Of a DNA stretch of 43,862 nt, positions 1,037-37,396 are shown in pieces. This stretch comes from Chitinophagaceae bacterium. GTDB taxonomy: Bacteria > Bacteroidota > Bacteroidia > Chitinophagales > Chitinophagaceae. Made by a program: the position numbers and the translations under genes. Location: assembly GCA_022841365.1 (NCBI GenBank), contig JALHRP010000035.1, positions 1 through 43,862 of the forward strand. The letters are read 5' to 3'. How positions within the stretch are numbered: position 1 is the stretch's first letter; each line of letters opens with the position of its first letter. Under the pieces are notes generated by a model. It was not told the origin of the DNA and did not search any database. It worked only from the letters and a program-made list of their open reading frames with translations.

Positions 1037-1164
1037 CAGAGGCGGTTGTTATGTAAGACGTCTTTCAATAATGATTAGCTGCTTTAGCAAAATACATGTA
1101 AAGGATGATGGATCAATAAACGCATTCTTCTTCCTTGTCCCTTGTTTCCTGTGCCTTCTACATT

Positions 1165-6212: not shown

Positions 6213-6244
6213 CAAAACTATCGTTACATCAAACAACAGTCAAC
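6213..6244 (-). promoter_or_regulatory. Putative Bacteroidota promoter for the LiaF-like operon
   Basis: Read on the minus strand, GTTG (6241-6244) is followed after 20 bases by TAGTTTTG (6213-6220), matching the TTTG-N19/20-TAnnTTTG consensus except for one base of the upstream box. The expected transcription start falls about 10 bases before the ATG at 6196. Confidence 0.5.
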
Positions 6245-6383
6245 AGTTCATAGAGAAGCCGCAGGTAAATGTCGGTAAACAACAGCAAGCCGTCGGTAAG
6301 CTGCAAAAGGAACAGCCGGCAGTTGAGCACATGATTGAAATCAGTATGCTTGACTTCGTTCTGCTGAATGTATATCTTGTGTT

Positions 6384-33735: not shown

Positions 33736-36189
33736 ATGTACAGCATCGAACGTATTGCCCAAGTGCTTGAAGCAGTTTATTTGCAAAAAGCAAATACAGA
33801 ACATGCTGTTGAATATATCCAGATCGACAGCCGACGTATTATTCATCCCCAATCAACCATCTTCTTTGCATTACAAACTGAACGTAGAGATGGTCATGAT
33901 TTTATCAAAGACTGTTATCAGAAAGGTGTAAGGTATTTTGTTGTACAAAAGAAAACAGATACCACTCCTTTTACTGATGCATTTTTTTTGCTGGTTGATA
34001 ACACACTTCAGGCGCTGCAAAAACTGGCGGCTCATCATCGCAGCATGTTCAATATTCCTGTAATTGGACTAACCGGCAGTAACGGAAAAACCATTGTAAA
34101 GGAATGGCTCAACCAATTACTCTCTGAAGAATACAATATTGTACGCAGCCCGAAAAGTTACAATTCACAGGTTGGTGTTCCCTTAAGTGTATGGCATATG
34201 AAAGCGGAACACACACTCGCCATTTTTGAAGCAGGCATTTCTCAGACAGGCGAAATGGAACAACTGCAAAAAATAATACAGCCCACCATTGCAGTACTTA
34301 CAAATATCGGAGAGGCGCATAGTGATGGATTTACAGACAAGCAACAAAAACTAAATGAAAAAATAAAACTTGCTGCAACATCAGATGTATTGATCTGTTC
34401 TCCCGAACATTTAAACGAACTTACTTTATCTGCAGAAAAACTTTTCACCTGGGGGTATAACAGTAATAATAATGTTGTAATTAAACAGATCAGTAAAAAA
34501 ATTTCTTCAACTGAAATTCTTTTTCAGGAGAACACCAAAGAAGATCTGATTACTATTCCATTTACAGATGACGCATCTGTTGAAAATGCGCTATGCTGCC
34601 TCACTGTTTGTTTATACGCAGGCATACCAATCAACCGTTTGAAAGATCGGTTTATGCAGTTAAGAACTGTAAGTCTGCGACTTGAACTTAAAAGTGGTAT
34701 TCACCATACAACAATCATCAACGACAGTTACAGTGCCGATCTCAGTTCGTTTACCATTGCATTGAATATGCTGCAGCAGCAACGGCAGCACCAGCATAAA
34801 ACAATTATCCTCTCAGATTTTCCTGTACCGGAAGAACAGGAACAGGAAGTATACCGCTTAGTTGCACAGCTGATTCAAAGCCATCGTATAAACCGTTTAA
34901 TTACAGTAGGAGAAAAAATAAAACAACACGTTCCCGCTTTTTTAAACGGCATAGAGGTAAGCAGATTTTCTTCAACACTGGAATTAATTGAGCAGTTTGC
35001 AACGATCAGTTTTTCAAACGAAACAATCCTGATAAAAGGTGCCCGTGCTTTTGAACTGGATAAAATTGCACAGCTGCTTGAGCAGAAAACACATCAAACG
35101 GTTCTGGAAATTAATCTGTCTGCCATTGCAAGAAATATTAAAGAATATCAGAAACTGCTGAAGCCCTCTACCAAAATCATGGCGATGGTGAAAGCATTTT
35201 CATATGGAAGCGGCAGCTATGAAATTGCTAATCTCCTTCAGTTTATGCATGCAGATTATCTGGCAGTTGCATTTACTGATGAGGGTGTTGAATTAAGAAA
35301 AGCCGGCATTACTTTACCCATTATGGTAATGAATCCGGAGCCAGTAAGCTTTGATGCATTAACCGAACATAATCTGGAACCGGAGTTGTTTTCATTTTCT
35401 ATTCTTCATGCATTTGAAAACTATCTGGAAAAAGAGGCCATTACTGATTATCCGGTTCATATTAAAATAGATACCGGCATGCATCGTTTGGGGTTTATGC
35501 AGGAGGAGTTACCACATTTATGTGAACTACTTAAAAAGAAAAATTATTTCACCGTGCAATCTGTCTTCAGTCATCTTGCAGCAAGTGAAGATGAACAGGA
35601 AGATGCATTTACCTTGCAACAGTCAAAACTGTTTGAAGAAGCATGTTCCTATATTCAATCGCAATTGCAGTATTCATTTATCAGGCATCTGGATAATTCG
35701 AACGGCACATTACGTCATCCGCAATTGCAGTACGATATGGTGCGGCTTGGTATTGGTATGTATGGCATCAGTTCTGCATCCCATCAACTGAAATTAGAAG
35801 AAGCACTGAATTTAAAAACTACTATTGCACAATTGAAACAGTTGCAACCCGGCGATACGGTAGGCTATAACCGAAGAGGAATTATTCAGCAGCCTTCTGT
35901 TATTGCTACAGTTCGTATTGGCTATGCCGATGGTTATCCCCGTAACCTCAGCAACGGTAAAGGATACATGCTGGTGAACGGGAAAAAAGCACCTGTTATC
36001 GGATCTGTTTGTATGGATATGACCATGCTGGATGTAACGGCCATTCCCGATGTAACAGAAGGCGACGAAGTAATTGTTTTTGGCAGAAATCTTTCAATTA
36101 ATCAACTGGCGCAATGGAGCCATACCATCCCTTATGAGATTATGACCGGCATCAGCCAACGGGTGAAACGGGTCTATTTTGAGGAATAA
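33736..36189 (+). CDS. MurF-alanine racemase fusion protein
   Basis: An 817-residue fusion known from Bacteroidota. Residues 1-450 are MurF-like: DSRRIIHPQSTIFFAL, P-loop GLTGSNGKTIVKE (111-123) and NIGEAHSDGF. Several MurF residues have changed: the usual E-x-G-A-N reads EAGIS, and D-x-Y-N-A-N-P reads DSYSADLSS (330-338). Residues 455-817 are alanine racemase: ...EINLSAIARNI, PLP lysine Lys486 in MAMVKAFSYGSG, HIKIDTGMHRLGF, HLDNSNGTLR, GYNRRG (catalytic Tyr) and IGYADGYPRNLS. The Alr half looks active and supplies D-Ala; the MurF half may be weak or regulatory because an intact murF is at 21162. The left inverted repeat of the following unit starts 2 bases after the stop. Confidence 0.93.
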   Translation: MYSIERIAQVLEAVYLQKANTEHAVEYIQIDSRRIIHPQSTIFFALQTERRDGHDFIKDCYQKGVRYFVVQKKTDTTPFTDAFFLLVDNTLQALQKLAAHHRSMFNIPVIGLTGSNGKTIVKEWLNQLLSEEYNIVRSPKSYNSQVGVPLSVWHMKAEHTLAIFEAGISQTGEMEQLQKIIQPTIAVLTNIGEAHSDGFTDKQQKLNEKIKLAATSDVLICSPEHLNELTLSAEKLFTWGYNSNNNVVIKQISKKISSTEILFQENTKEDLITIPFTDDASVENALCCLTVCLYAGIPINRLKDRFMQLRTVSLRLELKSGIHHTTIINDSYSADLSSFTIALNMLQQQRQHQHKTIILSDFPVPEEQEQEVYRLVAQLIQSHRINRLITVGEKIKQHVPAFLNGIEVSRFSSTLELIEQFATISFSNETILIKGARAFELDKIAQLLEQKTHQTVLEINLSAIARNIKEYQKLLKPSTKIMAMVKAFSYGSGSYEIANLLQFMHADYLAVAFTDEGVELRKAGITLPIMVMNPEPVSFDALTEHNLEPELFSFSILHAFENYLEKEAITDYPVHIKIDTGMHRLGFMQEELPHLCELLKKKNYFTVQSVFSHLAASEDEQEDAFTLQQSKLFEEACSYIQSQLQYSFIRHLDNSNGTLRHPQLQYDMVRLGIGMYGISSASHQLKLEEALNLKTTIAQLKQLQPGDTVGYNRRGIIQQPSVIATVRIGYADGYPRNLSNGKGYMLVNGKKAPVIGSVCMDMTMLDVTAIPDVTEGDEVIVFGRNLSINQLAQWSHTIPYEIMTGISQRVKRVYFEE

Positions 36190-36191
36190 AA

Positions 36192-36220
36192 AAGCTGTTA
36201 GCCATTAGCCTTTAGCTGCA
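36192..36220 (+). repeat. Left terminal inverted repeat (29 bp)
   Basis: It pairs with 36624-36652, one mismatch in 29. It contains three 7-base TTAGCNN repeats and starts 2 bases after the murF-alr stop codon. Confidence 0.85.
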
Positions 36221-36250
36221 AGCAAATCACTTACTATTAAAATAACATTT

Positions 36251-36604
36251 ATGAAAAATTTTAAGGATTTAAAAATCTGGCAAAAAGGGATGGATATAGC
36301 CATCTCTTGTTTTCAATTGACAGAATCATTTCCCTCGACAGAAAGGTTTGGTATCTCTTCTCAAATAAACAGAGCCGGAGTGTCTATACCATCGAATGTA
36401 GCAGAGGGAAGCAGCAGAACAAGTGAAAAAGATTATGGTAGATTTATTGAAATTTCATTAGGATCTTCTTTTGAACTGGAAACACAATTACTCATTGCTC
36501 AACGATTAAAATTCGGAGATGACAGAAAGGTAGCTGACCTTATTACAAATGTATCAGAAGAACAAAAAATGTTAGCTGGCTTTCTGAAATCCCTTTTCCG
36601 ATAG
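36251..36604 (+). CDS. Four-helix-bundle protein (23S rRNA intervening sequence family)
   Basis: A 117-residue protein matching the TIGR02436/S23-type family: FKDLKIWQKGMDIAISCFQLTESFPSTE, FGISSQINRAGVSIPSNVAEGSSR, then FIEISLGSSFELETQLLIAQRL. It is predicted to be all alpha and related to the Avd accessory protein of diversity-generating retroelements, which binds nucleic acid as a pentamer. No reverse transcriptase or variable repeat is present here. The gene lies alone inside a pair of 29-bp inverted repeats, giving it the structure of an rRNA intervening sequence, but in intergenic DNA. Its function is not established; RNA or DNA binding is likely. Confidence 0.9.
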   Translation: MKNFKDLKIWQKGMDIAISCFQLTESFPSTERFGISSQINRAGVSIPSNVAEGSSRTSEKDYGRFIEISLGSSFELETQLLIAQRLKFGDDRKVADLITNVSEEQKMLAGFLKSLFR

Positions 36605-36623
36605 CTGGTTATTTCTTAATACC

Positions 36624-36652
36624 TGCAGCTAAAAGCTAATGGCTAACAGCTT
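36624..36652 (-). repeat. Right terminal inverted repeat (29 bp)
   Basis: Reverse complement of the left repeat at 36192-36220, with one mismatch (C/T in the middle heptamer). Its outer edge is 12 bases from the lspA -7 box, so it occupies the position where the upstream box of that promoter would lie. Confidence 0.85.
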
Positions 36653-36664
36653 GCAGCTTTCCTC

Positions 36665-36672
36665 TATCTTTG
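36665..36672 (+). promoter_or_regulatory. Putative -7 box for lspA
   Basis: TATCTTTG matches TAnnTTTG and lies 19 bases before the GTG start of lspA. The expected TTTG about 20 bases upstream would fall in the right inverted repeat (36642-36645), where the sequence is GCTA. Confidence 0.4.
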
Positions 36673-36691: not shown

Positions 36692-37396
36692 GTGAAGATT
36701 CGTCACGTTCTATTTATTATTCTCCTTATTTTATTTGCAGATCAGGCACTCAAGATCTGGATTAAAACACATATGTTGTACCAGGATGAGAAGTTCATTC
36801 TTGGCCGCTGGTTCCGTTTGTATTTTATTGAAAATGCAGGTATGGCTTATGGATGGAAGCTGGGCAACAGTGAATGGGCTAAGATGGCACTCACTCTTTT
36901 TCGATTAGGTGCGGTTATTTTCGGCAGCTGGTACCTTGTAAAAATTGTTCGTGAAAAATATCACCGTGGATTTATTATTTGTGCTTCGCTGATCTTTGCA
37001 GGAGCCCTCGGTAATTTAATTGACAGTTTATTTTATGGTATGATCTTCGATAAAGGCATGATCTATAATGCAGCTACTGATTCTTATTTTGGATACGATG
37101 GATTAGCTAAAGCAACGGGAAAAGGATATGCTTCGTTTTTACACGGTCATGTAGTTGATATGCTGTACTTCCCTGTTATTGAAAATAAAATGATGCCAAG
37201 CTGGGTACCGTTTATTGGCGGCAAACCGTTTACATTCTTCCAGGCAATTTTTAATATTGCTGATGCTTCTATTTCTGCGGGAGTTATTACCATCCTCCTG
37301 TTTCAAAAACGTTTTTTTAAACAACGAAAAACAGAAGAACCATCACAAACAATTGAAACAGATTCTTCCGTTACAGATGATGCACAGGTGATGTAA
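36692..37396 (+). CDS. lspA: Lipoprotein signal peptidase (signal peptidase II)
   Basis: A 234-residue membrane aspartyl protease that cleaves the signal peptide of lipid-modified prolipoproteins. The start is GTG. Four transmembrane segments are visible (about 5-22, 66-85, 95-112 and 185-204). Conserved motifs: N-terminal LFADQALKIWIK, FIENAGMAYG (46-54), GALGNLIDSLFYG (104-116), HGHVVDMLYFP (151-161) and FNIADASIS (187-195). It is longer than the E. coli enzyme because of an insertion between GNLID and HVVD (about 116-150) and a hydrophilic C-terminal tail; both are seen in Bacteroidota. It would process GldJ, the DUF4292 protein and the small lipoprotein in this window. Confidence 0.94.
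   Translation: MKIRHVLFIILLILFADQALKIWIKTHMLYQDEKFILGRWFRLYFIENAGMAYGWKLGNSEWAKMALTLFRLGAVIFGSWYLVKIVREKYHRGFIICASLIFAGALGNLIDSLFYGMIFDKGMIYNAATDSYFGYDGLAKATGKGYASFLHGHVVDMLYFPVIENKMMPSWVPFIGGKPFTFFQAIFNIADASISAGVITILLFQKRFFKQRKTEEPSQTIETDSSVTDDAQVM

Follow-up and report, generated by a model that had tools for sequence, protein, structure and literature searches.

Intergenic heptamers are abundant and have no agreed explanation (PMC6344855). Their arrays have been reported as the most abundant intergenic tandem repeats across a broad range of prokaryotes, with no hint of a function. For GGGAATC, a 2015 paper counted 186 sites in one Xanthomonas genome and 183 in another, along with 70 and 75 convergent pairs respectively, and left its role to be elucidated (PMC4692102). 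For the TAACTGA arrays of Beggiatoaceae, MacGregor suggested a translational role in 2015, and the same paper recounts that slippage had been proposed for heptamers by Mrazek in 2007 (PMC4679880). Tandem heptamers (GACAGAT) also occur in the 5' region of the 23S rRNA intervening sequence (IVS) of Coxiella, where their number varies between strains; this IVS has terminal inverted repeats and is cleaved by RNase III in vitro (PMC4990558). Genes of the PF05635 family have been seen in cas loci (PMC3936711) and the family has been likened to Avd (PMC10053308). Its solved relatives in the PDB, XCC0516 (2GSC) and 2RLD, have five chains each, and the 2GSC protein is a homopentamer of four-helix bundles that forms a toroid (PMC4990558). 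Among the matches listed by open-licence PubMed Central, as far as their excerpts go, we found no paper stating a link between PF05635 and heptamer arrays; 'S23' has no occurrence in the main text of PMC4679880 and 'XCC0516' none in that of PMC4692102, which leaves the partner protein unnamed in the parts covered.

We analysed a stretch of 43,862 nucleotides from a Chitinophagaceae genome (contig JALHRP010000035.1, hereafter the window), which contains a PF05635 gene bracketed by inverted heptamer arrays, with the following features:

33736..36189, plus strand: murF-alr fusion gene, upstream neighbour outside the unit (NF008897, 1111 bits)
36192..36220, plus strand: left heptamer array, with TTAGCCA (36198), TTAGCCT (36205) and TTAGCTG (36212)
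36251..36604, plus strand: PF05635/TIGR02436 four-helix-bundle gene, 117 aa (open reading frame and profile matches)
36624..36652, minus strand: right heptamer array, inverted copy of the left one (inverted-repeat search, also lag scan of the window)
36665..36672, plus strand: TATCTTTG box between the right arm and lspA (from the sequence)
36692..37396, plus strand: lspA (lipoprotein signal peptidase), downstream neighbour outside the unit (NF011369, 241.5 bits)
1125..1155, minus strand: intergenic, gene-less array of the AAGGGAC/AAGGCAC unit, the minus strand reading GGCACAGGAAACAAGGGACAAGG

The unit occupies 36192-36652 (461 bp), and the inverted-repeat search places its two arms of 29 nt each at 36192-36220 and 36624-36652, 403 nt apart and complementary at 28 of 29 positions (97%). 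On the complement, the right arm reads TTAGCCA TTAGCTT TTAGCTG, giving three TTAGCNN per arm, and the left arm starts 2 nt beyond the murF-alr stop codon. The protein matches PF05635 ('23S rRNA-intervening-sequence protein') at 4.8e-35 over profile positions 1-105 of 106 and TIGR02436 ('four helix bundle protein') at 3.1e-33. The repeat search and the profiles thus confirm the first-pass annotation, made from the sequence alone, which had described two 29-bp ends, 28/29 complementary and with three TTAGCNN each, around a four-helix-bundle gene, and the two profile matches bear out the kinship it had drawn with the protein family of 23S rRNA IVSs. Its expectation that the ends would pair if transcribed agrees with the predicted RNA fold of the window copy, which joins both ends (MFE -132.8 kcal/mol, z -5.2). 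The unit lies between murF-alr and lspA, not inside a 23S rRNA gene. Its arm score of 53 is the highest among the 116 PF05635 genes of the genus, the 99.9th percentile of mismatched pairs being 32. The TATCTTTG box before lspA, which we take to be a candidate for a Bacteroidota -7 promoter box, is also present, by eye, at the murF-alr/lspA junction in G001-G005 and G008-G011.

For the genus, the genome of the window (G000) was compared with 13 relatives, one genome per species, some of them drafts. A profile search found PF05635 in all 14 genomes (117 matches) and in none of the 14 well-known control genomes searched alongside the own genome. Omission of one overlapping fragment (G002:C25:308764-308913) left 116 rows, which include seven matches under the Pfam cut-off and two row pairs that look like one stretch on two contigs (L090/L091, L108/L109). 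Against a null of 4000 mismatched upstream/downstream pairs, the arm match exceeded the 99th percentile in 76 of the 116 genes and the 99.9th in 51, so that 40 genes fell short of the 99th. Upstream flanks had a strong period of 7 or 14 in 87/115 cases and downstream flanks in 68/115 (L017 was omitted for its short flank), compared with 23/118 for other gaps between genes at these loci; the control value is itself high for lag 7, which fits the gene-less arrays described below. The own genome has seven PF05635 genes, five with ends above the 99th percentile, a sixth (L008) whose ends appear in a plain inverted-repeat scan and a seventh (L006) with weak ends (score 24). Each bracketed gene has a unit of its own: TTAGCNN, GTTTGTA, GTTTAAA, AAGTACGA-like, AAGGGAC and AATTTGAAA-like.

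A wide set was assembled from the best 80 loci of a GTDB scan (proteobacteria, Bacteroidota, Nitrospirota, Planctomycetota, Chloroflexota, one ANME-1 archaeon and others) and five cyanobacterial plasmid loci, two of the 85 being omitted for short flanks. The arm match was above the 99th percentile of a mismatched control, in which related loci were retained, in 35 of the remaining 83 loci and not in the other 48. Lag 7 was best in 47/82 and 51/81 flanks vs 9/80 and 10/78 stretches 750 nt away, which lie mostly inside genes, so that the intergenic gaps of the genus are the stricter control. Read inward, the arms have a fixed polarity, with more G than C in 63 of 72 arms of the genus and in 46 of 49 of the wide set. 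The window unit is thus one case of a widespread architecture, which was directly observed in both sets. We also considered a core-plus-spacer pattern within the heptamer, for which the TRAP ring is the model, and found it only weakly supported, with no fixed pattern: the column variance was 0.566 vs 0.459-0.540 in null sets and the variable columns were unclustered (165 arms of both sets, 17 of the 35 genus loci L004-L038 being read on the wrong strand).

The heptamer differs from unit to unit, is alike at the two ends of one unit and, where it changes, does so at both ends. Among pairs that share a flanking gene and have a protein identity below 65%, the mean left-right score within a unit was 37.2, and across species the left-left and right-right scores were 17.4 and 16.5; the within-unit score was above both cross-species scores in 22 of 25 such diverged same-site pairs, some of which depend on one another. 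Across sites, the correlation of arm similarity with protein similarity is weak (Mantel r 0.187) but was reached in none of 2000 permutations. Because most unit lineages own a different heptamer, a search for TTAGC alone misses the class.

The occupants of a shared site can differ even in close genomes. Nine genomes have a unit at one and the same site, and their proteins fall into four groups at 70% identity; between G003 and G010 the DNA of the PF05635 gene is 62% identical at a shared site with flanks of 88-90%. By eye, divergence begins at the arms in three aligned same-site pairs. For the 148 of 152 same-site pairs that gave values, the similarity of the gene fell below that of both flanks in 85 and exceeded it in 27. 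The window unit belongs to the latter kind of sharing, being common to G000 and G009 at 98.3% DNA identity next to a murF-alr gene of 78% (59% at its third codon positions), with the high similarity extending ~190 nt into lspA. Likewise, two Nostoc plasmids carry a unit that is 99.4% identical, with 83% for the preceding gene and 94% and 90% for the two following genes; their right arrays differ in length. Recombination tracts could explain the sharing in both G000/G009 and Nostoc. Units are swapped between species at shared sites, independently of their flanks. As to the mobility that the first-pass annotation had considered, sites without the unit exist, but free jumping of the gene-bearing unit was not seen in the genus, where a scan of the 14 genomes, one per species, revealed no recent move to a new site and the closest cross-site proteins are 73.7% identical (alignments of at least 80 aa). 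The broken gene L093 reaches 75% identity to a cross-site protein over a shorter stretch. At the start of the left arms of L112 and L029, the upstream stop codon is apparently supplied by, or abuts, the heptamer array (TAAGGCAC, TAAGGTAA; by eye).

Sites without the unit, which the first-pass annotation had named as supporting evidence, occur in relatives, and we observed them both in the genus and in Nostoc plasmids. The murF-alr/lspA junction holds a unit in four of the 14 genomes, with TTAGC or AGC heptamers in G000, G009 and G006 (where the contig ends within the right arm) and CGCTGCA-type heptamers in G011. Seven genomes (G001, G002, G003, G008, G010, G012 and G013) have a short junction without the unit, and that of G008 retains two GCTAA units, a possible relic (by eye). 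The junctions of G004 and G005 have heptamer arrays and no gene, and in G007 the next gene is apparently inverted (by eye). At a transfer-gene site of Nostoc, for which 30 records matched and seven plasmids were read, the unit is present in pC052_D and pNe_5 and absent from two plasmids of strain C057; pNsp_c carries GGGAACT/AGGGAAT-like heptamers as a pair with no gene between them, and two further plasmids have other sequence in which no pair was recognised. No target-site duplication was recognised by eye at the sites without the unit, the spacers of which differ too much. In Nostoc edaphicum pNe_5 (L229), a unit with TAGGGAG arrays lies between the genes of the two ribonucleotide reductase subunits, and Calothrix NIES-4105 has both genes without the unit.

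The repeats also occur without the gene. The exact 29-bp end, a search for which had been proposed, is not a shared repeat: it is found in the own genome only at the window locus, but its threefold TTAGCNN core recurs at one further own-genome site and in four of the 13 relatives. In total, TTAGCNN x3 gave 16 matches in 5 of the 14 genus genomes, and the reversed control gave none in any. By eye, these matches make up 13 sites: three gene-bearing units (the window, G009 and G005), four inverted pairs and six single arrays. The inverted pairs (L241, L243, L244 and L245) have a short interior and, together with the GGGAATC pairs below, are the solo end pairs that had been named as supporting evidence. 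G000, G005 and G009 have both TTAGC arrays and a TTAGC unit; arrays are present in G004 and G011 with no TTAGC unit in either genome, and G006 shows the reverse. The L245 pair of the own genome sits between convergent genes and is also found in G009 and G006 (by eye), with one compensatory change between G000 and G009 (by eye); the site has an ordinary terminator-like hairpin instead in G010, G011, G001, G003 and G004 (by eye). At the orthologous junction in G002 and G005 (L304/L305), the gap exceeds 400 nt and apparently contains an unrelated small open frame (by eye).

Arrays of other heptamers occur too. The AAGGGAC/AAGGCAC unit is the end unit of another PF05635 gene of the own genome, L010, and the window carries a single array of it at 1125-1155. 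A lag scan of the window detected three arrays, compared with a mean of 0.15 and a maximum of 1 in 20 mononucleotide shuffles; a weaker second lag-7 stretch lies at 6226-6253 (ACATCAAACAACAGTCAACAGTTCATAG). TACGAAG arrays occur in 6 of 14 genus genomes; they are present in G001 and G011, whose unit at the site of the TACGAAG unit has another heptamer, and absent from the TACGAAG holders G000 and G003. Across the 18 genomes reached via named loci, GGGAATCGGGAATCGGG was found in eight (five Xanthomonas, two Dokdonella and one Luteimonas), with 12 to 181 overlapping matches each and none for the reversed control, and it was absent from the other ten; the eight carriers are mutually related and all gene-bearing. 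TAGTGGN x3 was found in one of the 18 genomes, its own Thiohalocapsa, and its reversed form gave 16 matches in five genomes, none of them in the TAGTGGN-holding one. GGTTGTN x3 gave 17 matches in its own Maribacter and two in the non-cognate Thiohalocapsa; its reversed control, with 20 matches in the own genome, is the same array and so uninformative. Nine GGGAATC pairs picked by eye among the matches listed all run forward then reverse, and no reverse-then-forward pair within 900 nt was present among those matches. The interiors of the nine pairs, of 26-101 nt, are unrelated except for two short matches of 15 and 10 nt. The arrays that we read lie at gene ends, some immediately following a stop codon or preceding a start codon.

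In the gene-bearing units of this type, the Xanthomonas loci L149-L152 have two exact GGGAATC upstream of the gene and a degenerate inverse downstream (GGGAATA, GGGAATG) with no exact GATTCCC, and in a fifth Xanthomonas locus, L153, the downstream arm could not be made out. Dokdonella fugitiva and Luteimonas have exact GGGAATC upstream and its exact inverse downstream, and Dokdonella immobilis (L156) has GGGATTC, not GGGAATC, upstream of the gene. In L149, L154 and L155, the XCC0516-type gene just precedes an open frame beginning MLDKVVIANRGEIALR, presumably a biotin-carboxylase-like start, and the unit may lie there between accB and accC.

In the reading that we favour, to which we would give about an even chance, the ring protein recognises its private heptamer, and the two form a protein-repeat pair like that of REP and RAYT with no transposase. 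The unit consists of two parts, the gene of a PF05635 ring protein and inverted flanking arrays of a heptamer that is private to the protein lineage. Most probably the oligomer would recognise its own heptamer in nucleic acid that is single-stranded or folded into a hairpin, and each subunit may contact one repeat. Such recognition would keep both ends matched, would let arrays of the same heptamer arise at other gene ends without the gene, by a presumed protein-dependent spread, and would allow the whole unit of one species to be substituted by that of another wherever they share a site. Cutting and joining would be supplied by the host or another enzyme, as the PF05635 partner is not a transposase. 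The counts for GGGAATC (8/8 vs 0/10) and TAGTGG (1/1 vs 0/17) point towards a dependence of array abundance on the cognate gene, although the eight genomes are related and one of them has GGGATTC ends; those for TTAGC and TACGAAG are mixed. The link between arrays and resident gene is imperfect, with TTAGC, TACGAAG and GGTTGT arrays also present in non-cognate genomes. More tentatively, and as something we deem possible rather than probable, PF05635 proteins at large might each read a private code of seven letters, every ring being matched to one heptamer, and might make or spread the heptamer arrays; they would then constitute a distinct kind of repeat-protein system that does without a transposase and passes between species at fixed sites.

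The unit might instead be an RNA intervening element, as the first-pass annotation had suggested, the ends of the transcript pairing into a stem that RNase III cuts as in 23S rRNA IVSs and selection on that stem preserving the complementarity. The paired ends of the window copy in the predicted fold (z -5.2), the combination of heptamers, terminal inverted repeats and in vitro RNase III cleavage in the Coxiella IVS (PMC4990558) and the compensatory change seen by eye in the gene-less pair of G000 and G009 are consistent with this, as is a modest matching in the register of heptamer order, which we found in 60 of 78 units of the genus and in 20 of 32 of the wide set (p 0.06). Selection on the RNA stem should, however, leave a mark on the arm mismatches, and G-U-compatible mismatches were not in excess in the genus (59 vs 56) and went in the opposite direction in the wide set (28 vs 62). 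This wobble test thus gave no support to RNA-stem selection as the chief reason why the arms match. In addition, partnerless single arrays are common among the TTAGC sites (6/13), and Rfam detected no rRNA when given 20 of the 80 genome loci. Hence we regard an RNA element as unlikely. Most of the match between the arms comes from their common unit; the register effect, modest as it is, implies that they are somewhat more than one unit repeated and that some pairing or conversion between the ends may act. Comparably improbable, in our judgement, is that the arrays are host regulatory sites, either sites at mRNA ends to which PF05635 proteins bind post-transcriptionally or terminators, spread by benefit to the host and not selfishly. 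Their location at gene ends, some adjoining stop or start codons, would suit such a role, and so would the L245-site pair of G000, G009 and G006, which takes the place of the terminator-like hairpin of G010, G011, G001, G003 and G004 (by eye), and the translational role suggested for the Beggiatoaceae arrays (PMC4679880). Within one genome, however, the units vary from locus to locus, a pattern that fits a private code better than it fits a regulon, and whole units differ or are common between species at one site regardless of the flanks.

Two further explanations appear very unlikely. If the heptamers were plain products of polymerase slippage that lie near PF05635 genes by coincidence, as slippage has been proposed for heptamers by Mrazek in 2007 (recounted in PMC4679880), one would expect the variable copy number in close relatives that the right arrays of the two Nostoc plasmids exhibit, and the frequent arrays in other gaps (23/118); slippage alone explains neither an inverted private unit that flanks one family, nor the two-sided change (22/25), nor the inward polarity (63/72). 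Hardly more credible is a MITE-like element of the ordinary sort that a known transposase (a Y1 HUH enzyme, for instance) or a reverse transcriptase mobilises in trans. Y1 transposase matches are present in 13 of 14 genus genomes and PF05635 resembles Avd, the accessory protein of diversity-generating retroelements (NF033474 at E 0.0044, far under its cut-off; PMC10053308), but G010, with five PF05635 genes, has no Y1 match, and RVT_1 is unmatched in 8 of the 14 genomes, some of them drafts, including the own genome and G009 with its 16 PF05635 matches. Accordingly, neither a reverse transcriptase nor a Y1 transposase was retained as a universal helper. There is also no conserved interior, the nine gene-less GGGAATC pairs being unrelated inside save for the two short matches. 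Phage records gave no match.

The S23p family, whose function is unsettled and which is best known from inserts in 23S rRNA, is bracketed here by heptamer repeats, mostly with one unit per lineage. If the protein binds its heptamer, the role of S23p and the origin of heptamer arrays become one question, and the repeats scattered without the gene may shed light on a common kind of bacterial DNA repeat to which no purpose has been assigned. Compared with the 23S rRNA IVSs that carry an S23p open reading frame (Leptospira, Coxiella), the units share the PF05635 family, complementary ends and a similar size, and the Coxiella IVS also has 5' tandem heptamers (PMC4990558). Unlike these IVSs, units of the window type lie between protein genes, mostly have their own heptamer per lineage, have gene-less arrays and lack a signal of RNA pairing in the arm mismatches. 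The Avd protein of diversity-generating retroelements is a distantly related small four-helix protein, but the window protein scored below the cut-offs of both Avd profiles (NF033474, 17.3 bits vs 80; bAvd, 13.2 vs 40), and RVT_1 matches are absent in 8 of 14 genus genomes.

The REP/REPIN system with its RAYT protein (TnpA_REP) is similar in that the gene is flanked by its own class of short repeat, the class is dispersed gene-free and the classes are tied to the protein (PMC3686654). In the same way, inverted repeats of the own class flank 76 of the 116 genus genes here, and the same class is dispersed without the gene. The two differ in the protein, which in PF05635 is a four-helix bundle with no known nuclease and not a Y1 HUH transposase, and in the repeat. 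The REP form is a palindrome, whereas the repeat here is a tandem heptamer array, and the interiors of the examined pairs are unrelated. The TAACTGA arrays are likewise intergenic direct repeats of a heptamer, in proteobacteria, cyanobacteria and Bacteroidetes (PMC4679880). Also comparable are the arrays of GGGAATC in Xanthomonas and GGGGA(T/C)T in Nostoc (PMC4692102): GGGAATC-type heptamers also form the ends of the XCC0516-type gene and occur in the same convergent pairs here, whereas that paper was a study of G-quadruplexes.
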